From positions 62,001 through 126,000 of the forward strand of contig JACPVF010000009.1 in the NCBI GenBank assembly GCA_016191845.1: a stretch of DNA of 64,000 bases, in the 5' to 3' direction. The stretch is from Chloroflexota bacterium (GTDB lineage Bacteria > Chloroflexota > Anaerolineae > Anaerolineales > Villigracilaceae). The translations under genes and the position numbers were made by a program. Under the pieces are notes generated by a model. That model was not told the origin of the DNA. It saw only the letters and a program-made list of their open reading frames with translations, and ran no database searches. Positions 13,874 to 45,060 of the stretch are shown piece after piece; the stretch's first letter is position 1; the number at the start of each line of letters is the position of its first letter.

Positions 13874-14790
13874 GGCAGAGTCTCAATAAAGTGTAGCACG
13901 GCTCGAGCCAATGCGGCGCGATCTGTAAGGGATTTCATAAGTGTGTTGGTCACCAAAGTTGGGATTGGGATTTGAGGAGCCAGGTCGGCATCCACTTCAT
14001 CGAGCACAAAACCGCTCAACAGTCCGCGATAATGCTCGGACACGGCCAGCGCCGACGGCTGGATGCCCAGCTCGGTGTACATTTTGGCGGCGGGACCTTT
14101 GACGGTCTGCCCGCCGATGATGGGGGAGACAGCCACGATGGACCGTGGCATCTGGACCGTGGACCGTTGTAGGACTTTTAGGATCGGGTCCACACTGACC
14201 CAGGGATTGGACGGGCAGATGACGATGGCATCTGCCGACTGAATGGCCTCAACCACGCCTGGGGCGGGTTCCGCTTGATCGAGCCCGTCGAAGCGAAAGC
14301 CCTTGACCTGCGGCTCGCAGTGGCGGTGGACGAAGTATTCCTGAAACGCGAGGTCGCCCTGGTCCGTTTCGACGATGGTGCGCACGGGCTGGTTACTCAT
14401 CGGCAGGACGGTCACGTCCACGCCCCAGGCCTGACAGAAATCGCGCGTGACCTGTGAAAGCGACTGGCCTTCTCTGAGTCGACGCGTACGTTCGAGGTGC
14501 GTGCCGAGGTCCTGATCGCCGAGGTTGAACCAGTCGGGTCCGCCCAGGCGTTTGACGTTGGCAATGGCATTCCAACTTTCGTCCGCGCGGCCCCAGCCTG
14601 TCTCAAAGTTAGCGAGTCCAGCCAGCGTATAACAGACCGTGTCCAGGTCGGGCGAGATGGACAGACCGAGGTGTTCAAAGTCATCGCCCGTGTTGACGAT
14701 GACGGTCAGGTCTTGCGGGGGGAGGACTTGAGCGAGGCCGTGGGCGAGTTTCGCGCCGCCGACGCCGCCAGCGAGGGCAACAATTTTCAT
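13870..14790 (-). CDS. cofD: 2-phospho-L-lactate transferase (F420-0/dehydro-F420-0 synthase)
   Basis: A 306-aa enzyme that transfers the phospholactyl or enolpyruvyl phosphate group from the CofC product to FO. Motifs are the N-terminal ALAGGVGGAKLAHGL, VNTGDDFEHLGLSISPDLDTV, LGDQDLGTHLERTRRL, a central ICPSNPWVS and SPIIGGQTVKGPAAKM, all characteristic of CofD/FbiA. Length is normal and all conserved blocks are present. The start overlaps the nitroreductase stop (14787-14790) and the end overlaps cofC, so three genes are coupled in a row. FO synthase (cofG/cofH) is not in this window. Confidence 0.95.
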   Translation of the reverse strand: MKIVALAGGVGGAKLAHGLAQVLPPQDLTVIVNTGDDFEHLGLSISPDLDTVCYTLAGLANFETGWGRADESWNAIANVKRLGGPDWFNLGDQDLGTHLERTRRLREGQSLSQVTRDFCQAWGVDVTVLPMSNQPVRTIVETDQGDLAFQEYFVHRHCEPQVKGFRFDGLDQAEPAPGVVEAIQSADAIVICPSNPWVSVDPILKVLQRSTVQMPRSIVAVSPIIGGQTVKGPAAKMYTELGIQPSALAVSEHYRGLLSGFVLDEVDADLAPQIPIPTLVTNTLMKSLTDRAALARAVLHFIETLP

Positions 14791-15380
14791 CGGATGGCCA
14801 TCATATTTTGCAACGATTTAAACGATTTCTCTTTGGGTGCTTCATTTGGATGTCCAATGATTATCATCCCTTGAGGTTCCCAGTCCTTGGGTAAATCCAA
14901 CGCCGTGAGGGTCTCCGTCTGCGCGTACAACGGCCAGCAAATCCAATTTGCACCAAGTCCCTCTGCGTGGGCAGCGAGGAGGAGTTGCAATCCCGCCGCC
15001 GCCACGGATTGTGTGCCCATGATCGCTTCCTCGGGTGTATCCACGCGGACGTCGGTCACGTCGCGGCAGAGGACGATCAGGGCGGGTGCTTCGTCGATGC
15101 GGCGCAGGGAACGGGTCACACGCGCTTCGATCTCGGATTGGGGTGCACCCTCGGCTTGCATGTCCGCGCGCATCTTGGATGTGAGGGCCGCGCCGAGCCG
15201 CTGCCTGGCGGCGGGATCCTTGATCACCGCAAACCGCCACGGCTGACGATTGTGGGCTGAGGGGGCAAACGTCGCGGTGGCGAGCAGATCCTCGATAACG
15301 GAATCAGGCACGGGGTCCGCTTTGAAGCGGCGGATGGAGCGGCGGGAGCGCAGGAAGTCTCGCAGGTTAGTGTTCGTCAA
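14787..15380 (-). CDS. Nitroreductase family protein, candidate dehydro-F420-0 reductase
   Basis: A 197-aa FMN-binding nitroreductase. RSRRSIRRFKADPVPD and FAPSAHNRQPWRFAVI are the standard FMN phosphate and ring contacts; the region GLGANWICWP and the ending MIIIGHP complete the fold. In mycobacterial FbiB such a domain is fused behind CofE and reduces dehydro-F420-0 (established). Here it is a separate gene coupled to cofD by ATGA and co-transcribed with cofE, so the same role is the simplest reading (inference). General nitroreductase activity is the alternative. It overlaps the preceding PPOX-fold gene by 14 nt. Confidence 0.85.
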   Translation of the reverse strand: MTNTNLRDFLRSRRSIRRFKADPVPDSVIEDLLATATFAPSAHNRQPWRFAVIKDPAARQRLGAALTSKMRADMQAEGAPQSEIEARVTRSLRRIDEAPALIVLCRDVTDVRVDTPEEAIMGTQSVAAAGLQLLLAAHAEGLGANWICWPLYAQTETLTALDLPKDWEPQGMIIIGHPNEAPKEKSFKSLQNMMAIR

Positions 15381-15756
15381 AGTGGGTCGGCTTGATCTTG
15401 AAGATGATGCGCTTCTGTCCCTGGCGATAGGTCCAGGGTTTACTGTCGTATTTCAGCGAGAGTTTGTTGATGTGCTCGTCAGCGCCCTCGGTGGTGTGAC
15501 TCTCCACCACGCCGCGCACACCCAGGTAGCGATAGGGCGTGGCAGGGTCCTGAATGACCATGGCCACTTTGGGACGGGCCTTCATGTTGCGATCCTTGAT
15601 GCGGCCTTCGTTGGTGTTGACCAGGATATATTCGCCGTCGGTGTCGAACCAGATGGGCGTCACCTGCGGCGTGCCATCCGCGTTGGTGGTGGCAAGGAAG
15701 AGGAAGGCTTTGGTTTCTTCTTTGAATAGGTCGAGATATTTTTCGGGGAAATTCAT
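15367..15756 (-). CDS. PPOX class F420-dependent protein
   Basis: A 129-aa split-barrel protein of the pyridoxamine-5'-phosphate-oxidase-like superfamily, F420-binding subgroup. Recognisable blocks are AFLFLATTNADGTPQVTPIWF, EYILVNTNEGRIKDRNM, KVAMVIQDPATPYRYLGVRG and the C-terminal KRIIFKIKPTHF. Such proteins reduce or bind F420 with varied substrates such as quinones, biliverdin and fatty acids. Its position inside the F420 operon supports F420 over FMN. It overlaps the pyrophosphatase-like gene by 4 nt and the nitroreductase by 14 nt. The substrate is unknown. Confidence 0.85.
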   Translation of the reverse strand: MNFPEKYLDLFKEETKAFLFLATTNADGTPQVTPIWFDTDGEYILVNTNEGRIKDRNMKARPKVAMVIQDPATPYRYLGVRGVVESHTTEGADEHINKLSLKYDSKPWTYRQGQKRIIFKIKPTHFDEH

Positions 15757-16109
15757 GTGGACTCCAACGGATTTTTGACGAAGAGATAAGCCATGCCGTC
15801 GTCGTGGAAATCGGAAATGGTTCGCACATCATCTTCCGTACAACCCAGCAATAACTTGATCTCTGCGTCGCGTTTGAGTGTATCAAAGGTGCATAAGATT
15901 CCCGTTAGCACGCGGGAATTAAGTGAGCCCAACCATACATCGATGCCGCCGCCATCGGAGGCGGAGGTGCCTTCGAGGTAGCCATAATCCAGCGGATAGA
16001 TCAAGTCGGGCCAGTGGGGATGCGGCCTGCCTTTGGGGCGGTCGATGACGATGGGGGTGGATTCCGCCAAGTGGGCCATTTCCAGCCAGAAAGCGGAGTC
16101 TGGTCTCAT
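15753..16109 (-). CDS. Degenerate mini inorganic pyrophosphatase-like protein
   Basis: A 118-aa protein, shorter than family I pyrophosphatases (about 165-180 aa). The core is recognisable: DRPKGRPHPH, IYPLDYGYLEGT, SDGGGIDVWLGS and FDTLKRDAEIK. Compared with the E. coli enzyme, the aspartates equivalent to Asp65, Asp70, Asp97 and Asp102 seem present (Asp52, 57, 76, 81). Asp67 is replaced by Gly54 and Lys104 by Glu83, and the N-terminal Glu/Lys/Glu strand is missing. It may be a weak hydrolase for PPi released by CofC, or a non-catalytic derivative (inference). It is coupled by ATGA to both neighbours. Confidence 0.75.
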   Translation of the reverse strand: MRPDSAFWLEMAHLAESTPIVIDRPKGRPHPHWPDLIYPLDYGYLEGTSASDGGGIDVWLGSLNSRVLTGILCTFDTLKRDAEIKLLLGCTEDDVRTISDFHDDGMAYLFVKNPLEST

Positions 16110-30175: not shown

Positions 30176-31417
30176 ATGCCCGAATTCCTGACCCTGCTTC
30201 CCCCTGAGGAAGCCCGCGCCCTGTTGTTATCTCACCTTTCCGCGCCCTTGCCTGATTCCGTCCTGGTGGACGTTTCCTCGTCCCTGGGTCGTGTCTGCGC
30301 CGAGGATGTGCGCGCTCCGCATCCGCTGCCCGAGTTCCCGCGCTCCACCGTGGACGGCTTCGCCGTCCGCGCGCGCGATACCTTCGGCGCAAGTGACTCG
30401 CTGCCCGCGTACCTGTCGCTGATCGGCGAAGTGCCGATGGGGGGCGCGCCGCAATTCGAGGTTGGGGCGGGACAGTGCGCGATCCTCCATACGGGCGGCA
30501 TGTTGCCTCCGGGTGCAGACGCAGTGGTGATGCTCGAATACACCCAGCACGCCCGCGAAGGCGAGATGGAGATTCAGCGTGCCGTGGCGGCAGGGGAGAA
30601 CGTCATCCGCGTGGGCGAGGATGTGGCCGCCGAAACGGTCATCCTGCCCAAGGGGCGGAGAATGCGTCCTGCCGAGGTGGGCGGACTCATGGCGCTGGGA
30701 ATCCTCTCTTTGCGCGTAGCCAAGTCTCCGAAGGTTGGTCTGCTCTCGACAGGCGATGAGGTGGTGGACCCATCCCAGACGCCGCAACCAGGTCAGGTGC
30801 GCGACGTCAACTCCTACACGCTCTCGGCGCTGATCGAACGGGCAGGTGGGGAGCCGATCCGCTATGGGATCGTCGGTGATCAGTTCGAGGCGCTCGAAGC
30901 GGCGGCGCGAAGGGCCCTGGCCGAATGCGACGCGGTCCTCGTCACGGCAGGGTCATCGGCCTCGACGCGCGACATGACCGCCGAGGTCATCTCGCAGTTG
31001 GGAGAGCCCGGCGTGCTGGTACACGGCATCAACACCAAACCAGGCAAGCCCACCATTCTGGGGGCGTGCGGTGGCAAGGCGGTCATCGGTTTGCCAGGCA
31101 ACCCCGTCAGCGCGCTGGTCAATGGATACCTGTTCGTCGTGCCTGTGATCGAGAAGCTGCTGGGCGAAACTCCCAGGCCGCAGGCCACCGTCCGCGCGCA
31201 GCTGACGGTCAACCTGCCCTCCCAGGCGGGCCGCGAGGATTGGTGGCCCGTGAAACTGGTTGGTCGGGAATCGGGAGTCGGGGGATGGGAGGCGGAACCC
31301 ATCTTCGGCAAGAGCAATCTAATCTTCAATCTGGTCCAAGCTGATGGTCTGTTGCGCATCTCCCCTGACGCCACGGGGCTTTCGGCTGGGGAAGCGGTTG
31401 AGGTCGTCCTTCTATGA
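30176..31417 (+). CDS. moeA: Molybdopterin molybdenumtransferase MoeA
   Basis: A 413-aa enzyme that inserts molybdate into adenylated molybdopterin. Domains are in normal order: ALGRV-like N-terminus, FPRSTVDGFAVRA, LHTGGMLPPGADAVVMLEYT, LPKGRRMRPAEVGGLMALG, then the MoCF_biosynth domain with LLSTGDEV and GLPGNPVSALV, and a C-terminal beta domain. Length is normal, so this is the likely housekeeping MoeA; a second, fused MoeA lies at 43093. It is followed by a bidirectional terminator shared with the pilin gene. Confidence 0.95.
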   Translation: MPEFLTLLPPEEARALLLSHLSAPLPDSVLVDVSSSLGRVCAEDVRAPHPLPEFPRSTVDGFAVRARDTFGASDSLPAYLSLIGEVPMGGAPQFEVGAGQCAILHTGGMLPPGADAVVMLEYTQHAREGEMEIQRAVAAGENVIRVGEDVAAETVILPKGRRMRPAEVGGLMALGILSLRVAKSPKVGLLSTGDEVVDPSQTPQPGQVRDVNSYTLSALIERAGGEPIRYGIVGDQFEALEAAARRALAECDAVLVTAGSSASTRDMTAEVISQLGEPGVLVHGINTKPGKPTILGACGGKAVIGLPGNPVSALVNGYLFVVPVIEKLLGETPRPQATVRAQLTVNLPSQAGREDWWPVKLVGRESGVGGWEAEPIFGKSNLIFNLVQADGLLRISPDATGLSAGEAVEVVLL

Positions 31418-33572: not shown

Positions 33573-34577
33573 TTACGGCTTGAGGCTTTGCGCGCACCGG
33601 AAACCGATGCCCACGCCAACTGTAGCGGGTTCTTCTGGAAGGAGTCGGGCGGTTGTCCTCTCCATGCCGCAGAAGTAGCAGTCCCATTCCTCACCGCGGA
33701 CGACTTTCTTGTCTCCCGTATCTGGCCCAAAGGGGTTGGAACTCGGAGAAGTCTGATAATACGTCTCGTTGTACCAGTCATGCACCCATTCTGCTGCGTT
33801 GCCCGCCATGTCGAACAGACCGTAGAAGCTGGCGCCCGCAGGATAGGAGCCGACCTCGGTCGTATCCCCGACATAGTTGTTGATGTTGGTCAGGGTCTTG
33901 TCTGGGGTGTTATTGCCCCAGGGGTAGGTGCGGTTGTCGGTCCCTTTGGCTGCATTTTCCCATTCCGCTTCTGTGGGCAGGCGGCGGTCTGCCCAGGAAC
34001 AATAGGCATCCGCGCCAAACCACGACACCATCACGACGGGATGGTTTTCGTAGCCTGGTGCGACGGAGAATTTCGTGCCGTCCCAGGCAATGCGATCGGC
34101 CCATTTGTCGGTACAGGTGGAGCACGTCAGGAGGTAGAGCGTGTTGTCGCCCGATTTCACGGATTTCATGAAGTCGTCGGGCGTGATCGTGAATTGGGCG
34201 ATGTTGTCGTTGAGGAATTTCGCGAACATCTGGTTGGTCACTTCGGTTTTGTCGATCCAATAGGCATCCAAGGTGACCTGGTGCGCGGGCCGTTCATCCG
34301 CATATAACTTGCTTCCCATGGTGAACTCGCCCGCTGGAATGAAGACCATCTCCATGCCGTCTTTTTCGGAGGTCATTGTCGAACCCAGGGATGGAGTTGG
34401 TGTGGGTGTGAGCGTGGGAGTCGGTTCTGGCGTGTTGGTGGCTGTCGGGGGGATGGGCGTGTCGGTCGGCGGTAGAGGAGTGGCTGTCGGTGGTGTCGAG
34501 GGGGAGGATGCTCCGCAGGCGCTCAATATAAACGCGATTGCCATCAAGATCACCAGGGCTGCCTTTTTCATGTCCAT
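33573..34577 (-). CDS. Lipoprotein with formylglycine-generating-enzyme-like (SUMF1) domain
   Basis: A 334-aa exported lipoprotein. The lipobox ILSAC follows a hydrophobic signal, then a long Thr/Pro linker (repeats of PTATPLPPT type) places a SUMF1/C-type-lectin-like domain outside the membrane. Typical blocks are GMEMVFIPAGEFTMGS, ERPAHQVTLDAYWIDKTEVTN, NHPVVMVSWFGADAYCSWADRRLPTEAEWE and NAAEWVHDWY. The C-terminal GFRCA retains one cysteine, but the CxxxC-type oxidase pair of true formylglycine enzymes is not evident, so a binding role is more likely. GGAG lies 5 nt before MDMKKAAL. Confidence 0.82.
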   Translation of the reverse strand: MDMKKAALVILMAIAFILSACGASSPSTPPTATPLPPTDTPIPPTATNTPEPTPTLTPTPTPSLGSTMTSEKDGMEMVFIPAGEFTMGSKLYADERPAHQVTLDAYWIDKTEVTNQMFAKFLNDNIAQFTITPDDFMKSVKSGDNTLYLLTCSTCTDKWADRIAWDGTKFSVAPGYENHPVVMVSWFGADAYCSWADRRLPTEAEWENAAKGTDNRTYPWGNNTPDKTLTNINNYVGDTTEVGSYPAGASFYGLFDMAGNAAEWVHDWYNETYYQTSPSSNPFGPDTGDKKVVRGEEWDCYFCGMERTTARLLPEEPATVGVGIGFRCAQSLKP

Positions 34578-34667
34578 CTTTTCTCCTTTTTTGAGAACGG
34601 CACTGACCGTGGGCACGGGCTTTCTTATATATTTCCCAACGGTTTTGTTCCGAAAAACAGCATCTTT

Positions 34668-34766: not shown

Positions 34767-35951
34767 ATGTCCTTTCACAACAAAATCGACGAATGGATCC
34801 AGGAAGCCGAGGCACGCCCCGAGTCCGCGCTGACGATCGTCAAACTGATCGCCAAACGTCTGCGCGAGCTGACCGAGCGCAACGAGGCCCTGCTGGCGGA
34901 GAACATCGCGTTGGAGAACGGCACGCGCGTCGACGAATACCGCAAGCGCATCGCCCACCTGGAGTATCAACTGGACCTGCTCAAGCGGCGCTTCAACGCC
35001 GACGAGGAAGACCTGCGCGTCGATGTCGCGGCCCGAACAGGAGAAACGTCCACCACTACCAGCCTGCTGGTCTACAACGCGCGCGGCAAATTCTTCCGCG
35101 TCGAGCTAAGCGACGAAATCAGCGAGATTGGCCAGATCCAGGGCGGGCTGTCTGTCGAGATGGAGCCGCCGCGCTTCCTGGCGGTGCCGTCGAACGGCGA
35201 GGTGCTGCTGCTGTTCAGCTCGGGGCGCGTCAGCACCTATGCGGTCAGCAACCTGCCACGTGCCGAAGCGGGAGGCGCATGGACCTGGGAGCAGGCGTCC
35301 ATGCCCGACGAGCCACGCGCAGGCGAGACCCTCTCCTGTGTCGCGCCCATCGACGCGCTGCCGTTGTCTGATTTCTTCCTGCAGGTCAGCCGACGCGGCT
35401 ACGTCAAAAAGACCATGACCTCGATGGTGCAGTCGATTCTCAGCAATCATTACCTGGGCAAGGGCGCCATGCAAAAATCCGACCAGCCCTTCGACCTGAC
35501 CCTGACCCGCAAAACGGACCGCTTTGCCCTCGTCACCTACGAGGGTCATCTGCTTGGCCTGGACGTGGACGACCTGTCGTATACGGTCGAGGGGCGCATC
35601 CGCTTGACGGCCACCGATTACGTGGTCGGCTCGTTCCTGATGCGCCCCGACGAGTCGCTGCTGTGCGTCACGCAGGCGGGCAAGGTCGTCGTGCGCGAAC
35701 AGAAGGAGATCGAGATCTCCAAGTCTCCGCTGGCCAAGGGACAGCCGCTCATCCCGCCTTCGCGGCTGGGTCAAGGCGTGCGCTTCATGGGCGCGGTGGC
35801 GGCGCGGGATGCCGACAAGATCGCGGTGCTCGACGCTGAGGGCAGGATCCGACTCCACATAGCGGAATCCATGCGAGGGGCGGGAACGGTCGAAGCTCAG
35901 GGGCTGGTCCTGTCCATTGGGCGGATCCCCAGCGAAGGCGGCAGGCCATGA
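34767..35951 (+). CDS. Coiled-coil protein with GyrA C-terminal-like beta-pinwheel
   Basis: A 394-aa protein. Residues 1-80 form a coiled coil (KLIAKRLRELTERNEALLAEN and EYRKRIAHLEYQLDLLKRRF). The remainder contains repeated blade motifs like those of the gyrase A/ParC C-terminal DNA-wrapping domain: LLVYNARGKFFRVELSD, SRRGYVKKTMTSMV, ALVTYEGHLLGL, LLCVTQAGKVVVREQKEI. The topoisomerase catalytic domains are absent and the GyrA-box is not evident, so it is not a gyrase. It could wrap or sense DNA, or be a protein-binding propeller. Its stop overlaps the ATG of the Hsp70-like gene (ATGA). Confidence 0.75.
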   Translation: MSFHNKIDEWIQEAEARPESALTIVKLIAKRLRELTERNEALLAENIALENGTRVDEYRKRIAHLEYQLDLLKRRFNADEEDLRVDVAARTGETSTTTSLLVYNARGKFFRVELSDEISEIGQIQGGLSVEMEPPRFLAVPSNGEVLLLFSSGRVSTYAVSNLPRAEAGGAWTWEQASMPDEPRAGETLSCVAPIDALPLSDFFLQVSRRGYVKKTMTSMVQSILSNHYLGKGAMQKSDQPFDLTLTRKTDRFALVTYEGHLLGLDVDDLSYTVEGRIRLTATDYVVGSFLMRPDESLLCVTQAGKVVVREQKEIEISKSPLAKGQPLIPPSRLGQGVRFMGAVAARDADKIAVLDAEGRIRLHIAESMRGAGTVEAQGLVLSIGRIPSEGGRP

Positions 35952-37273
35952 GCCTCAAGGTCGGCATCGATTTCGGCACCTCCAACTCGGGCGTGGCGGT
36001 CTACGATGGACAGCACGTGCGGCTGCTGCCCGTCGACCCGAAGAACGTCCTGCCCGAGGTCATCAAGACCGTGCTGTACATCACGCGCGATTATCGCTGC
36101 TACGTGGGGCAGGAAGCGGTCGAGACCTATTACCGCGACAACGTCAACCGTCAGCGGCGCTACGTGAAGCAATGGGCAGGCGAGATCGATGTATACGGCG
36201 CGGACATGCACTACGTGCGCGATATTTACGTCTACGTGGACGAGCTTCAGCCTGGGCGCCTGTTGCAATATCTCAAGACGGCGCTGCGGCGCGACGGCTA
36301 CCAGGGCACCAAGATCTTCGAGCGCTTCTTCAGCGTGGGCGACCTGGCCAAGATCTACCTGGCCATGCTCAAGCGCCGCGCCGAGTCGGTACTGGGCGAG
36401 CCAATCCAGGCGGTGACCTTGGGGCGGCCCGTCAAATTCTCCGAGTCGCCTGAACTGGACCTCAAGGCGCAAGAGACCTTGCGCCAGGCCGCGCTCGAAG
36501 CGGGTTTCAAGCATGTAGATTTTGAGTTGGAGCCAATCGCTGCCGCACTGGATTACGAACAGACCCTCACGAAACCGCAGAACGCGATCATTTTCGACTT
36601 TGGCGGTGGCACGCTCGATATTGCCGTCATGCGCCTGGGCGATCCGCGCCAGCGGGAGGTCTATGCCAGCGGCGGTGTAGACATCGCGGGCAGCGACTTC
36701 GACCGCACCATCATCGAAAAACGCATGCTGCCGCATTTTGGTGATGGACAGGTGAAGCATCACCCCGAGATCGCGGAGATGGTCCACGCCGTGCCCGATT
36801 GGATGGCTCTGCCCGAGTTGGGTACGCCCGTCAACCGCAACATCCTCGAAAAGGCCATCCAGGCCAAGATCGCGCCCGTGCGCTTGAAGGCCCTGGAAGG
36901 ACTCATCTACAACGACCTGGCCTTCACCTTCTACAACCGTGTGGAGGCCGCCAAGATCGCCCTTTCGGATGCGGGCGCGACCATCATCAACATGGAAGAC
37001 AAGGACATCGCGCTGTGGGAGTTGTACACGCGCCACCAGTTCGAGAGCGACATCCAGCACTATGTGGCCGACGTGGAGAAGGTGCTGCTCGACACGGTGG
37101 CACGCTCAGGGCTGGAACCAGGTCAGATCGATGCAGTGGTCAAGACGGGCGGCTCGTCGAACATCCCGTTGTTCACAGCCATGCTGGCACGCCTCTTTGG
37201 CCAAGGGAAGGTCAAGGCGTCCAACGCATTCAGCAGCGTGGTGGCAGGCCTGGCGATCAAGGCGGGCAGGTAA
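35948..37273 (+). CDS. YegD-like Hsp70 family ATPase without substrate-binding domain
   Basis: A 441-aa actin/Hsp70-fold protein. Phosphate motif 1 is GIDFGTSNSGVAVYDG, the connecting segment LEPIAAALDYE, phosphate motif 2 FDFGGGTLDIAVM, and the adenosine motif VKTGGSSNIPLF. Length covers only the nucleotide-binding domain, as in E. coli YegD, so it lacks the usual peptide-binding and lid regions. It is translationally coupled to the coiled-coil/pinwheel protein, which may act as its client or adaptor (inference). Confidence 0.87.
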   Translation: MSLKVGIDFGTSNSGVAVYDGQHVRLLPVDPKNVLPEVIKTVLYITRDYRCYVGQEAVETYYRDNVNRQRRYVKQWAGEIDVYGADMHYVRDIYVYVDELQPGRLLQYLKTALRRDGYQGTKIFERFFSVGDLAKIYLAMLKRRAESVLGEPIQAVTLGRPVKFSESPELDLKAQETLRQAALEAGFKHVDFELEPIAAALDYEQTLTKPQNAIIFDFGGGTLDIAVMRLGDPRQREVYASGGVDIAGSDFDRTIIEKRMLPHFGDGQVKHHPEIAEMVHAVPDWMALPELGTPVNRNILEKAIQAKIAPVRLKALEGLIYNDLAFTFYNRVEAAKIALSDAGATIINMEDKDIALWELYTRHQFESDIQHYVADVEKVLLDTVARSGLEPGQIDAVVKTGGSSNIPLFTAMLARLFGQGKVKASNAFSSVVAGLAIKAGR

Positions 37274-39000: not shown

Positions 39001-39816
39001 TCACCGATGGGTTTTGTCTAATTTCCTCGTAACCGCCAGAATCAGGATCGATACCCCCACCAATACCACCGAGAGAGCGATGGCTACCCCCAGATCGCGC
39101 TCGAAGCCGAGGTAGATGGCCAGCGGCATGGTCTGGGTGACACCCTCCAGATTGCCCGCGAACATGATCGTCGCACCAAATTCACCCAGGGCGCGCGTCC
39201 AGGTGAGGATGGCTCCGCTGACCAGCGAGCGTCCCGCCAACGGGAACATCACTTCGCGGAACAGCTGCCACTGGTCGGCGCCTTCCACGTGAGCGGCCTC
39301 TTCCAGCTGTACATCAATCTCGTTGAAACCGATCCGCGCTGCACGGACGTATAACGGTGCGGACACGAACAATTGCGCAATGACCACAGCCGCCGTGGTG
39401 AACGGCAGTTGAATCCCCAACTCGTTCAACGCCGCCCCGAAGAGTCCGCGCCTGCCAAAGGCCACCAACAAGGCCAGGCCTGCCACCGAAGGCGGCAGGA
39501 TGACGGGCAGGTCGATCAGGGTCGTTGCCCAGGATTTGAACGGGAAGTGCCAGCGCGCCAACATGTAGGCCAATGGAGTGCCCAATGCGACCGTGACCGC
39601 CACAGTCAGCAGGCTGGTGACCAGGCTCAGGCGCAGCGCCTCCAACGCCGAAGGTGACAGGGCCTGCGCAAAGAAGTCTGCATTGAGGGCACGCCCGAAC
39701 AGGGCCAGCAGGGGCAGGCCCAACAGGGTCAACAAGACGAGACTGGGGAGGATGAAGAGCCAGTCCCGAGTCCCGTTGTTGGCGATGTGTTCGAAGAGAC
39801 GCCGCAGGCCAGGCAT
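39001..39816 (-). CDS. modB: Molybdate ABC transporter permease
   Basis: A 271-aa inner-membrane permease with about six helices. The region LPVILPPSVAGLALL and the coupling loop EEAAHVEGADQWQLFREVMFPLAGRS, with TRALGEFGATIMFAG after it, are typical of ModB. It starts 1 nt after the modA stop. No ATPase gene (modC) follows; the next gene is a dehydratase, so the transporter must use an ATPase encoded elsewhere, or the locus is incomplete. Confidence 0.9.
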   Translation of the reverse strand: MPGLRRLFEHIANNGTRDWLFILPSLVLLTLLGLPLLALFGRALNADFFAQALSPSALEALRLSLVTSLLTVAVTVALGTPLAYMLARWHFPFKSWATTLIDLPVILPPSVAGLALLVAFGRRGLFGAALNELGIQLPFTTAAVVIAQLFVSAPLYVRAARIGFNEIDVQLEEAAHVEGADQWQLFREVMFPLAGRSLVSGAILTWTRALGEFGATIMFAGNLEGVTQTMPLAIYLGFERDLGVAIALSVVLVGVSILILAVTRKLDKTHR

Positions 39817-39817
39817 G

Positions 39818-40675
39818 CTACTGGATCGGGCTGAAGCCCCACTTCGCCAGAATATCCTGACCCTCGGGCGAGAGTACGTAGGCGATGAACTCAGCGGCCA
39901 GTTCGGGCTGCGGAGCCTGGGTCAGCGCGGCGATGGGATACTTGGCGATCACGTTGAGTTCAGCGGGAATCTCGATGGTCTTCAACTCGGGCGCGGCAAC
40001 GGCGTCGGACACGTACACGATGCCCGCGTCCGCTTCGCCCAGTTGGACTTTGGCAACCACCTGCTTGACGTCATTCTCGTTCGAGACCACGTTCGCCAGC
40101 ACCTTCGCGCCGAAGTCCGAGCCAAAGACGGGATCCTGGCTCATCTTGTCGAGGATCTGGCGGGCGTACTTGCCAGCGGGGACAGTGTCTGCGGCCAGCA
40201 CCACCTTGACGCCCGAGCGGGCCAGGTCTTGCAGCGACACGAGGCCTGCGGGATTGTTTGCGGGCAGGATGACCAGCAACTTGTTGGTCAGGAAGTCCTG
40301 GGCGACCCCATCCTGAACCAGCCCCGCCTTGATGGCGTTGTCCATCTCGGTGTGGTTGGCCGAGGCGAACACGTCTGCCGACGCACCCTCTTCGAGCTGG
40401 GTGCGGAGAGTCTGTGAGCCCGCAAAGTTGAAGGTCACCATCACCCCAGGATGTGCGGTCTCGAAGTTCGCGCCGATCTCGGTGAAGGCATCCTTCAGCG
40501 AGGCAGCTGCGAAGACGGTCAATGTGCGCGGTTCGGGCGTGGCGGTGGGAGGAACGGCCATGGCTGTCTCGGTGGAAGCGGAAGGCTGCGTTGGTGCGTC
40601 GGTCGGCGTAGCGACAGGGGCGCAGCCCGCGGCGAGCAGGGCAAACAGGAATAGAAGGGACAACAAACGTTTCAT
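39818..40675 (-). CDS. modA: Molybdate ABC transporter substrate-binding lipoprotein (ModA, copy 1)
   Basis: A 285-aa lipoprotein. The lipobox LLAAGC follows the signal, then a Thr/Pro/Ala linker. The ModA core is RTLTVFAAASLKDAFTEIG, FNFAGSQTLRTQLEEGASADVFASAN, LAADTVPAGKYARQIL and EADAGIVYVSDAV, which carry the Ser, Ala and Tyr oxyanion contacts of the family. GAGG precedes the ATG. A CCGCCT/AGGCGG hairpin lies in the 71-nt gap after the second modA and may set their ratio. Confidence 0.92.
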   Translation of the reverse strand: MKRLLSLLFLFALLAAGCAPVATPTDAPTQPSASTETAMAVPPTATPEPRTLTVFAAASLKDAFTEIGANFETAHPGVMVTFNFAGSQTLRTQLEEGASADVFASANHTEMDNAIKAGLVQDGVAQDFLTNKLLVILPANNPAGLVSLQDLARSGVKVVLAADTVPAGKYARQILDKMSQDPVFGSDFGAKVLANVVSNENDVKQVVAKVQLGEADAGIVYVSDAVAAPELKTIEIPAELNVIAKYPIAALTQAPQPELAAEFIAYVLSPEGQDILAKWGFSPIQ

Positions 40676-40746: not shown

Positions 40747-41556
40747 TCAACGTGCCGCGCCAAACTTCCAACTCGAGAGGATGTTCTGTCCGTCGCTGGA
40801 GAAGACGAAATCCACGAATTGCTGGGCCAGGTCGGCGTTGGGGGACTGGGTCAACGCTGCGATGGTGAATTCCGCCAGGACGTTGGCATCGTCGGGGATG
40901 GGTAAGGTGACCAGGCTGGGCGCGGTAATCAAGTCTGAAAAGTACACAATGCCCGCATCTGCCTCACCCGATTTCACCCTGTCCACAACCAGGCGGACGT
41001 TCTCTTCGTTGAAGGCCGCGTTGGTGATGATTTTCTGGTTGAACCCGTCGCCATACGTGGCATTCAGATTCTTGAGCATGATGCGGGTGTACTTTCCCGC
41101 AGGATCCGTCTCGGCGGGCAGGGACAACTTGAGGCCAGGCGCGGCCAACTCATCGATGGACTGGATGTTTGCAGGGTTCCCAGGCGGCAGGATCACCACC
41201 ATTTTGTCGGTGACAAAGGCCCGCTGCACAGCATTCTTATTTACCATCAACGCGGCCACCAGGGCGGTCATCTCGCGGACGCTGGCCGAGGCAAACACGT
41301 CGGCTCCGCCGCTTTGGATGATCTGATTGCGCAGGGTCTGTGTGCCGCCGAATTGGAATTTGACCGTCACACCCGGGTTGGCCTCCTCGAAGCGGGGGCC
41401 GATCTCGGTGAAGGCCTCGGTCAACGCGCTGTCGGCGAAGACTGTCAGCGTGCGCGGCTGGACCGTGGCGGTGGCTGTCGGCGCGGGCGTGGAGGCAGGG
41501 GTGCATCCCACCATAAGGATGGACAGCGCAAACAGAACCGATAAAATTTTCTTCAT
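40747..41556 (-). CDS. modA: Molybdate-type substrate-binding lipoprotein (ModA, copy 2)
   Basis: A 269-aa paralogue of copy 1. It has lipobox LMVGC and the core RTLTVFADSALTEAFTEIG, FQFGGTQTLRNQIIQSGGADVFASAS, LPAETDPAGKYTRIML and EADAGIVYFSDLI. The first serine-containing contact differs: AAASLKD in copy 1 is ADSALTE here, so oxyanion preference (molybdate or tungstate) may differ (inference). Its ATG overlaps the padR stop (ATGA). It was probably produced by tandem duplication. Confidence 0.88.
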   Translation of the reverse strand: MKKILSVLFALSILMVGCTPASTPAPTATATVQPRTLTVFADSALTEAFTEIGPRFEEANPGVTVKFQFGGTQTLRNQIIQSGGADVFASASVREMTALVAALMVNKNAVQRAFVTDKMVVILPPGNPANIQSIDELAAPGLKLSLPAETDPAGKYTRIMLKNLNATYGDGFNQKIITNAAFNEENVRLVVDRVKSGEADAGIVYFSDLITAPSLVTLPIPDDANVLAEFTIAALTQSPNADLAQQFVDFVFSSDGQNILSSWKFGAAR

Positions 41557-43092: not shown

Positions 43093-45060
43093 ATGTCCGT
43101 TTACCTCCACGATATCCCGCTCGCTCAGGCCCAGGCGCGTTTCCGACAAGCTCTAGAGGAGGCGGGACTCTGGCGCGTGCTTGGCGCGGAAATCCTTCCC
43201 CTGGACGAGGATCTGCTCGACCGCGTGCTGGCGGACCCTGTATGGGCAAAGGTCTCTTCACCGAATTACCATGCCTCAGCCATGGATGGCTTTGCCGTAT
43301 GCGCCAAAGACACCGAAGGTGCGGGACCCTCGGACCCGATCACGCTGCAGGTCGGACCCTCATCAGCCCGTTACCTTGATACGGGCGATGCCCTGCCCGC
43401 CGAGTTTGATTCCGTCATCCCCATCGAGAACGTCGAGGCGCTGGACGATGCGGGCCGAGCCACTGAATCGATTCGCAAGCCCGCTTTCGTCCGCATCCGC
43501 GCAGCCGTAGCTCCGTGGAGTCATGTCCGCCCGTTGGGCGAGGATATCATTGCCACGCAACTCGTCCTGCCTGCAGGGCATGTGCTGCGCCCCGCCGACC
43601 TGGGTGCAATTGCTGCTTCAGGCCATACTGAAGTGAAAGTGGCGCGCAGGCCGCGTGTGGCCATCCTGCCGACGGGCAGTGAGTTGGTCCCGCTCGGCAG
43701 CGAGTTGAGGCCGGGCGACATCCTCGAGTACAACTCGCTGGTCCTGGCGGCGCAGGTCAAAGCCACGGGTGCGCAACCGACCCGTTACCCGATCACCATC
43801 GATAACTTCGATTTGATTTGTGAACGTGTGAAGGAAGCCGCCCAGGAGCATGACCTGATCCTGTTGAACGCAGGGTCCTCGGCGGGTGCGGAGGATTTCT
43901 CTGCCAAGGTGGTGGAGACGCTTGGAACGCTGTATGTGCATGGCGTGGCTGTGCGACCCGGGCATCCTGTCATTTTGGGGACGGTGACGCGCGGCGATTC
44001 ATCCGTCGTTCCCATTATCGGTGTGCCTGGTTATCCCGTCTCGGCCGCGTTGACGGTGGATATCTTTGTCGAGCCGATCCTGGCCCAATGGCGGGGGCGC
44101 CGTCCACTGGCGCTGTACGAGGAACAGGCTACGCTCACGCGCAAGATCGTCTCACCGCCCGGTGACGATGATTACGTGCGCGTGGCAGTGGGGCGGGTGG
44201 GACAGAAATTACTGGCTGCGCCTCTTTCGCGCGGTGCAGGAGTCATCACTTCATTGGTCCGCGCAGATGGGCTGGTGGTGATCCCCCGCGGCGAACAAGG
44301 CGCGGAGGCGGGCCAGCCTGTGCATGTGCGCCTGTACCGCACGCCCTCCGAGTTGGACCGTACCATTTTCTGCATCGGCTCCCATGATGTGATCCTTGAT
44401 CTGTTGGCTCAATACCTGTCCAACCATGACCGCCGCTTTGTCTCGGCCAATGTCGGCTCGCAAGGCGGACTGGTGGCCTTGCGGCGCGGCGAGGCCCATC
44501 TGGCGGGATCCCATCTGCTCGATCCCGAAACGGGTGAGTACAACGTGTCTTATCTCAAACAATACCTGCCTGATATACCTGTCAAACTGGTGACGCTGGT
44601 GGGCCGCGAGCAGGGCTTGCTGGTGAGGCGGGGTAACCCGAAGGGCATCAAAGGCCTGGGTGACCTGACCCGCCCCGAGGTCCAGTTTGTGAACCGCCAG
44701 CGGGGGGCGGGCACGCGCATCCTGTTGGATTATCATCTGAACAGATTGGGGATAGTCGCCGAAACCGTCCTCGGCTACAATCAAGAAGAATATACCCATC
44801 TGGGTGTGGCGGCGGCGGTAGCCTCGGGCCGCGCGGATTGCGGCCTGGGTATTCCCGCCGCAGCGCAGGCTCTCGACTTGGATTTTGTGCCGCTATTCAA
44901 CGAGCGATACGACCTGGTCATTCCAACCGCCTACGCTGAAAGTGATCTACTTGCACCCCTTTTTGCGGTGCTGGCCGACCCGGCCTTTCGACAATCGGTG
45001 GCGGCCTTGCCAGGTTATGATGTTACCCGCATGGGAAATTTAGTTTTGGAGGCTTTATGA
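43093..45060 (+). CDS. moeA: MoeA fused to a periplasmic-binding-protein-like (LysR substrate-type) domain
   Basis: A 655-aa two-domain protein. Residues 1-410 are MoeA (HASAMDGFAV, DTGDALPAEFDSVIPIEN, LPAGHVLRPADLGAIAASG, LPTGSELVPLG, GVPGYPVSAAL). Residues about 415-655 match the PBP-like domain found fused to some MoeA proteins (IGSHDVILDLL, GSQGGLVALRRGEAHLAG, FVNRQRGAGTRILLDYHL, AAAVASGRADCGLG). No signal peptide is present, so the binding domain is cytosolic and may sense molybdate or a molybdopterin ligand (inference). Its stop overlaps the response regulator start. Confidence 0.92.
   Translation: MSVYLHDIPLAQAQARFRQALEEAGLWRVLGAEILPLDEDLLDRVLADPVWAKVSSPNYHASAMDGFAVCAKDTEGAGPSDPITLQVGPSSARYLDTGDALPAEFDSVIPIENVEALDDAGRATESIRKPAFVRIRAAVAPWSHVRPLGEDIIATQLVLPAGHVLRPADLGAIAASGHTEVKVARRPRVAILPTGSELVPLGSELRPGDILEYNSLVLAAQVKATGAQPTRYPITIDNFDLICERVKEAAQEHDLILLNAGSSAGAEDFSAKVVETLGTLYVHGVAVRPGHPVILGTVTRGDSSVVPIIGVPGYPVSAALTVDIFVEPILAQWRGRRPLALYEEQATLTRKIVSPPGDDDYVRVAVGRVGQKLLAAPLSRGAGVITSLVRADGLVVIPRGEQGAEAGQPVHVRLYRTPSELDRTIFCIGSHDVILDLLAQYLSNHDRRFVSANVGSQGGLVALRRGEAHLAGSHLLDPETGEYNVSYLKQYLPDIPVKLVTLVGREQGLLVRRGNPKGIKGLGDLTRPEVQFVNRQRGAGTRILLDYHLNRLGIVAETVLGYNQEEYTHLGVAAAVASGRADCGLGIPAAAQALDLDFVPLFNERYDLVIPTAYAESDLLAPLFAVLADPAFRQSVAALPGYDVTRMGNLVLEAL

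Follow-up and report, generated by a model that had tools for sequence, protein, structure and literature searches.

A gyrase-type beta-pinwheel encoded beside, and elsewhere fused to, a YegD-like Hsp70

The window considered here is a stretch of 64,000 nucleotides from a Chloroflexota bacterium (GenBank assembly GCA_016191845.1, contig JACPVF010000009.1, positions 62,001 to 126,000 of the forward strand), and it harbors two overlapping genes on the plus strand that bring a gyrase-type fold together with an Hsp70. The first gene, P0001 (34767..35951), encodes a protein of 394 amino acids in which N-terminal helices are followed by a six-bladed beta-pinwheel of the type found in the C-terminal domains (CTDs) of GyrA and ParC. 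The second, P0002 (35948..37273), encodes a YegD-like Hsp70 of 441 amino acids that consists of the ATPase domain only. Together they constitute a real and conserved two-gene unit, and in other loci the pinwheel and the Hsp70 are found within a single reading frame. These natural fusions represent the strongest support for the two components working together.

We lean, if only slightly, towards regarding the two genes as one split pinwheel-Hsp70, with the pinwheel as the client module, the helices as the dock and an ATP-switched grip. The YegD-like Hsp70 lacks a substrate-binding domain, the place of which would be filled by a pinwheel derived from the GyrA CTD, supplied in cis in the fusions, where it follows the ATPase domain, and in trans in the lineage of the window. 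We infer that the two proteins form a complex, in which the conserved N-terminal helices would probably hold the pinwheel to the Hsp70 and also set the stoichiometry. The binding and hydrolysis of ATP by the Hsp70 would then switch the grip of the pinwheel on its client, which is most likely a protein and perhaps one associated with DNA. Whether this amounts to a distinct class of Hsp70 machine, with the peptide-binding domain replaced by a pinwheel of gyrase descent, in fused and split forms, with a docking helix at the N-terminus holding the split form together and with an ATP-driven grip on a client, we regard as an even call.

The pinwheel protein and its Hsp70 neighbor

The pinwheel of P0001 occupies residues 97-390 (35055..35936, plus strand) and is preceded by a conserved helical segment at residues 1-75 (34767..34991, plus strand). 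A Pfam scan of P0001 returned no match above any gathering cut-off, and the NCBIfam gyrA model recognizes the protein with an expect value (E) of 1.4e-5 over model positions 543-769 of 800, at 23.3 bits against a curated cut-off of 877, which is below the GyrA threshold. When P0001 was compared with the PDB using phmmer, it matched 1wp5, the CTD of topoisomerase IV (E 3.5e-11). A profile of 13 members of the P0001 family (A1, from which L023 was omitted as it is cut by a contig end) found 13 PDB sequences at E <= 1, all of them GyrA or topoisomerase IV, with a best value of 1.7e-15. The AlphaFold2 model, with a predicted local distance difference test (pLDDT) score of 77.3 and a predicted template modeling (pTM) score of 0.72, contains six blades, counted by eye from the strand list, with a closing strand at 381-387. 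All 20 Foldseek matches to this model at E <= 0.001 are GyrA/ParC chains, and VIA-align places residues 97-388 on 1suu with a Z score of 26.2 and a root mean square deviation (rmsd) of 2.9 over 270 residues, rows with an rmsd of 27-29 having been set aside.

The breakage-reunion (catalytic) domain is absent from P0001, which has a length of only 394 residues and is matched by the gyrA model from position 543 onwards. An initial annotation, made from the sequence alone, had seen in the protein GyrA-CTD-like blades without topoisomerase domains, and had named structure prediction as a check. The PDB and profile matches, the model comparisons and the length all agree with this description, and the predicted fold was returned rather than an unrelated one. 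The idea that P0001 completes a GyrA that has lost its tail, as part of a split gyrase, was rejected because the host encodes two complete proteins of the GyrA/ParC family; of the 800 positions of the gyrA model, one covers 2-798 and the other 1-796.

P0002 is matched by the Pfam HSP70 family at E 1.5e-25 (89.9 bits against a cut-off of 20.6). The NCBIfam model PRK11678, which we take to be the YegD family, aligns to residues 5-439 with a score of 167.3 bits, where the cut-off is 331; because this score is about half the cut-off, the protein is YegD-like rather than YegD. HSP70 profile matches to P0002 in the whole-genome search stop at position 373 of 599, where the protein ends, and the substrate-binding domain is absent. 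The P0002 model has a pLDDT of 71.7 and is weak over the first 130 residues, and the best 50 Foldseek matches listed for it are Hsp70-family chains or complexes. In DnaK numbering, the equivalents of D8, T11, E171, D194, T199 and D201 are kept in 32/32 Hsp70s from the pairs described below, and the K70 position is occupied by K in 26, R in four and Q in two. Of the initial description of a YegD-type Hsp70 with only the ATPase domain, the second half therefore stands, and the YegD type is a likeness that scores below the PRK11678 cut-off.

The two reading frames have four nucleotides in common, the ATGA at 35948..35951 (plus strand), in which stop and start codon overlap, an arrangement that would couple the translation of P0001 and P0002. 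Relatives were sought in a collection of 84,980 genomes by a scan with patterns drawn from the N-terminal helices, so that helix-less relatives would be missed, and 35 loci were found to encode a relative. The Hsp70 lies directly downstream on the same strand in 32 of these, and the same -4 junction recurs in 17 of the 32. Of the other three loci, L054 ends inside the gene, and in L065 only ~65 residues from the start of the protein are present, close to the end of the locus; the third, L063, is discussed below. Across the linked loci, the identity of the propeller falls as low as 36% and that of the Hsp70 remains at least 63%. A neighborhood search for the pair had been named beforehand as a check, with a lack of conserved linkage beyond close relatives as a refuting result; the linkage is kept down to this 36% identity.

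The two proteins also occur together at the level of whole genomes. Among 61 relatives, a propeller (E <= 3.2e-80) was found in nine and a close Hsp70 (at least 65% identity) in the same nine; in one genome, G032, propeller and close Hsp70 reside on separate contigs. Another seven of the 61 matched the propeller weakly (E 1.6e-8 to 3.8e-4), mostly in frames of 821-933 amino acids as in GyrA, and two contain distant Hsp70s only (37-40% identity). Of 400 sampled genomes from the phylum, six have a propeller (E <= 1e-12), and these six also have an Hsp70 of at least 69% identity. The two samples overlap, and the loci overlap with them too. Those genomes with relatives that carry a name are designated Chloroflexota, Chloroflexi, Anaerolineales or Anaerolineae, with one Anaerolinea sp.; in the host, whose genome amounts to 4.6 Mb, P0001 is single-copy. 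The failure of Pfam to recognize the pinwheel would suit a decayed fragment of GyrA that came to lie by chance beside an Hsp70 gene, but linkage over such wide divergence, open frames, co-occurrence and the fusions all contradict this explanation, which we find barely credible.

The most conserved part of the P0001 family is its N-terminal segment, where 27 of 75 positions are invariant among the 13 members; the pinwheel has 36 such positions among 294. AlphaFold2 predicts helices at 3-16, 18-50 and 53-75, the block having a pLDDT of ~55-70. The coiled coil that had been proposed here is only partly shown, as helices predicted at low confidence. One locus, L063 (2591-3730), encodes a pinwheel copy without residues 1-53, and no Hsp70 adjoins it though the DNA continues. 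This copy is placed within the pair clade in a tree of pinwheels, and a search of its genome, of unstated completeness, with P0002 revealed no close Hsp70 (best match 2.8e-10, then weaker). It is the single such case. The helices are probably the dock for the Hsp70, and residues 1-75 can be viewed as a putative Hsp70-docking or dimerization module.

A conserved helical N-terminus adjoining a highly conserved ATPase domain, together with the coupling and the co-occurrence, would also suit a protein that is mainly a co-chaperone, such as a GrpE-like exchange factor or ATPase regulator, with the pinwheel as a scaffold and the Hsp70 acting elsewhere. We consider this improbable. The cis-fused pinwheels have no visible counterpart of the N-terminal segment and are a better fit for a client-binding position, and no GrpE appears among the Pfam matches listed at E <= 1.

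Natural fusions and their history

Three distant Hsp70s have frames near 800 amino acids (L080, 766; L137, 791; L147, 825). A search with the tail alone across 118 genomes around one fusion gave 41 at E <= 1.1e-16, all in family f20, which accounts for 52 of the 118. The Hsp70 and the tail are in one frame in 30/30 fetched f20 loci, some frames being cut by contig ends. Complete fusions extend to ~770-825 amino acids, and the pinwheel occupies the position usually taken by the substrate-binding domain of Hsp70. In the reading frame of L157, for instance, PRK11678 aligns at residues 128-442, DnaK from residue 2 and gyrA at 518-750. Four more one-frame fusions were found: L178 (211-2511) and L179 (135-2462), which belong to family f10 and were the two among 101 genomes, and the divergent L189 (2547-4880) and L191 (2541-4907). 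These four represent a second, divergent kind of fusion; their tails are basic, with isoelectric points of 8.6-9.6, and one genome, G482, holds both kinds of fusion (L159 and L191).

The relationship of the fused tails to gyrase was assessed with two further profiles. A2 comprises 25 of the 28 long f20 tails (L150, L153 and L176 were omitted, and the incomplete L154 and L174, whose tails are shorter, lie outside the 28), and A3 comprises four tails. Both match PDB GyrA CTDs, at 1.7e-17 and 1.5e-9, respectively, although L178 alone gives no match to the gyrA model at E 0.01. When the profiles are compared with one another, A2 and A3 are joined at E 2.7e-20, A2 and the P0001-family profile A1 at 9.7e-10, and A3 and A1 at 2.8e-6 (probability 88). 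The A2-A1 alignment starts at position 67 of A1, and the first part of P0001 thus has no visible counterpart in the f20 fusions. A scan of the 400 phylum genomes with A2 gave 30 at E <= 1e-12, and the 12 loci fetched from these are made up of two fusions and ten GyrA-CTD matches that have no Hsp70.

In a tree of 92 ATPase domains, built from rows with at least 330 aligned positions after identical rows had been removed, the 32 pairs form one clade (100/100) and 27 f20 fusions another (100/100), and these two clades are sisters (98/94). The four other fusions form a clade elsewhere, and 27 tail-less Hsp70s fall outside the group of pairs and f20 fusions.

DNA or a topoisomerase as possible targets

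The fold of P0001 is that of a DNA-wrapping domain. The pinwheel may thus still bind DNA, which it would wrap or bend, with the Hsp70 ATPase loading, releasing or remodeling it as a nucleoid-associated machine, a reading that we judge rather unlikely. In S. Typhi GyrA, R667 and R716 are required for DNA binding, and R612, R712, R766 and R817 contribute (PMC7210945). Binding by B. subtilis gyrase does not depend on the GyrA box, whereas bending and wrapping do (PMC3510516). Ten GyrA proteins of the phylum have arginine at 612, 667, 712, 716 and 766 in 10/10 and at 817 in 9/10, with one gap; the E. coli reference chain has C at 716. In the 13 members of the P0001 family, by contrast, most of these wrapping arginines are not found. 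The positions of R612, R766 and R817 are basic in 0/13, and that of R667 is basic in 0/13 with MAFFT or 4/13 with HMMER. Positions 712 and 716 fall in a gap with MAFFT, and 712 is basic in 0/13 with HMMER.

A family of solo GyrA-type tails, of 343-384 amino acids, was also observed, in which a GyrA-box-like motif, e.g., RQRRSGMGV, comes after a short N-terminal helix. Its members are found in L182 (5469-6614), L183 (5604-6674), L184 (5717-6763), L185 (5483-6637), L186 (5558-6610), L187 (5615-6661) and L190 (5851-6882). Within the fetched stretches of these loci there is no Hsp70 at E < 1e-15, and the two members that were scanned are both above the PF03989 cut-off. A GyrA box, exact or relaxed, occurs in 0/13 P0001-family members and in none of the fused tails (0/25 in A2, 0/4 in A3), as compared with 1/10 exact and 7/10 relaxed in GyrA and 7/7 relaxed in the solo family.

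When the HMMER alignment was read with a tolerance of two places to either side, counting only the members aligned at each position, the P0001 family has a basic residue in 1/7 at 612, 2/12 at 667, 0/11 at 712, 0/11 at 716, 10/11 at 766 and 0/1 at 817. The solo family has one in 7, 5, 4, 1, 7 and 5 of 7 at the same positions, and GyrA in all. The P0001 family stands apart from the solo family at 612, 667 and 712, scarcely does so at 716 and does not at 766, where the basic residue near R766 speaks for the nucleoid-associated machine. So does the retention of several blade K/R residues, since P0001 R154, K214 and K215 are kept as K/R in 13/13. The net charge of the P0001-family pinwheel is mildly acidic, at -1 to -11 in 13/13, as against -3 to +6 for the CTDs of the ten GyrA controls and +3 to +28 for those of the second paralogue in five of ten, the other five having given no match. 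Charge is weak as an argument against DNA when taken alone.

The fusion tails are more basic at the positions of R667, R712 and R766. K or R is present at these positions in 13, 17 and 24 of the 25 f20 tails, and in the A3 tails the R667 and R766 positions are K/R in 4/4. Because the f20 tails are the more basic, the fusions may bind DNA even if the P0001 family does not. For the P0001 family, gyrase-style DNA wrapping appears, from the GyrA box and the wrapping arginines, to be disfavored, with a control family that weakens the test. The initial annotation had offered two options, a propeller that binds DNA or one that binds protein, in either case acting together with an Hsp70 ATPase; the fusions support the joint working, whereas the DNA half of the suggestion, in its gyrase-like form, has lost ground.

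The homology of P0001 to the tails of both GyrA and ParC, in a host with two complete proteins of this family, raises the prospect that the pinwheel mimics such a tail and serves, jointly with the Hsp70, as a chaperone or regulator of gyrase or topoisomerase IV. The title of one Foldseek match, 4mn4, mentions the MukB-topoisomerase IV interaction, and in L025 of genome G043 the pair has, at a distance of ~6 kb and in the same orientation, a ParC-type gene (14746-15999) with 53% identity to the second paralogue of the host. This is, however, the only GyrA/ParC gene in the 43 pair loci scanned, which partly repeat the same genomes, and the other gene families are each confined to 11 or fewer of 34 loci. 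We attach only a small probability to this explanation.

Several points weigh against the split pinwheel-Hsp70 that we favor. Six solo GyrA-box proteins, although clear GyrA tails, are also without R/K at 612, 667, 766 and 817 in the MAFFT alignment. Missing the exact arginines at most positions, this control family shows that the exact test is not decisive; the test fails the control in part and is weakened by it. The N-terminal helices are modeled at low confidence, and docking rests on their conservation and on one orphan copy. Only a distant YegD-like Hsp70 (32-42% identity) is present in 38 of the 400 phylum genomes, in frames of 438-557 amino acids in 36 of them, and in nine genomes inspected no pinwheel gene lies beside it. 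From these nine, it follows that this type of Hsp70 is not always in need of a pinwheel. The sister relationship of pairs and f20 fusions brings long branches together, as a warning from the tree tool indicates, and in the pinwheel tree the pairs, the fusions, and GyrA/ParC with the solo tails are three groups at one node. A single capture of the pinwheel is therefore neither supported nor excluded, and the trees leave room for its independent recruitment.

Known systems and the surroundings of the pair

P0001 resembles the CTD of GyrA and topoisomerase IV subunit A (PF03989, TIGR01063) in its fold and by remote sequence homology. It differs from these proteins in having no topoisomerase domains or GyrA box, in that most wrapping arginines were not found, in its mildly acidic character and in its linkage to an Hsp70. 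P0002 resembles the YegD-like Hsp70s of PRK11678 in its full-length alignment and its restriction to the ATPase domain, and differs in scoring below the cut-off and in having a linked pinwheel partner. YegD itself is hardly described in the literature searched; in one paper the gene is termed presumably an HSP70 chaperone gene.

Two further described systems come close to the pair. Borrelia Gac, as presented in PMC10127594, is a free GyrA CTD that is made naturally from inside gyrA and binds DNA. P0001 is likewise a GyrA-type CTD in the form of a free protein, but it is a separate, diverged gene (on contig C6, with the GyrA/ParC genes on C5 and C8), and it has N-terminal helices and an Hsp70 partner. 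The GAP1-N2 GTPase systems, as outlined in PMC7159879, are clusters with GrpE genes and an HSP70 that has no peptide-binding domain. They thus share with the P0001-P0002 pair an Hsp70 of this kind within a gene cluster, but they are centered on GTPases, and the main text of that paper does not mention gyrase. In the literature searched, whose coverage leaves out most subscription journals, no pairing of Hsp70 with a gyrase pinwheel was found in the titles or abstract openings listed. The initial remark that no described system combining the two was known accordingly holds within this search, which is no proof of absence, and the pinwheel-Hsp70 points to an Hsp70 architecture that is new to the searched literature.

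The work of Hsp70 rests on a single coupling, that of the ATPase domain to the peptide-binding domain. An Hsp70 with another client module, both in cis and in trans, would, if true, demonstrate the extent to which the ATPase engine allows re-tooling. It would also provide a handle on the little-described YegD-like Hsp70s, and would place the gyrase pinwheel at work outside the topoisomerases.

A defense or phage origin of the pair was considered and rejected, as searches of PADLOC, PHROGs, IMG/VR and plasmids, though not of the phage collection, gave it no support. The sole PADLOC match of P0001 is PbeC (E 0.047), and PHROGs contain nothing for P0001 below E 0.02. No relative of A1 or A2 was found in IMG/VR, and none of P0001 or of the L157 tail among plasmids. 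A conserved operon extending beyond the pair was likewise rejected, since in a clustering of 34 loci the next neighbor families are present in just 11, 10 and 10. The commonest of these other families, judged by eye, are trp genes, and in L034, L035, L037 and L043 aro and trp genes, identified by eye from translations, are situated near the pair on the other strand.

Within the window, the genes around the pair were assigned by eye. The gene 5' of the pair (33573-34616) is on the opposite strand and is divergent from it, and appears to encode a lipoprotein that carries a domain similar to the formylglycine-generating enzyme (SUMF1). The next frame on the 3' side runs to 37792 in the same direction as the pair, with which it could share a transcript. 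Further genes nearby suggest a molybdate and molybdenum cofactor theme (30176-31417, 39001-39816, 39818-40675, 40747-41556 and 43093-45060), and seem to include two MoeA-like genes, a ModB-like permease and two tandem ModA-like binding proteins.

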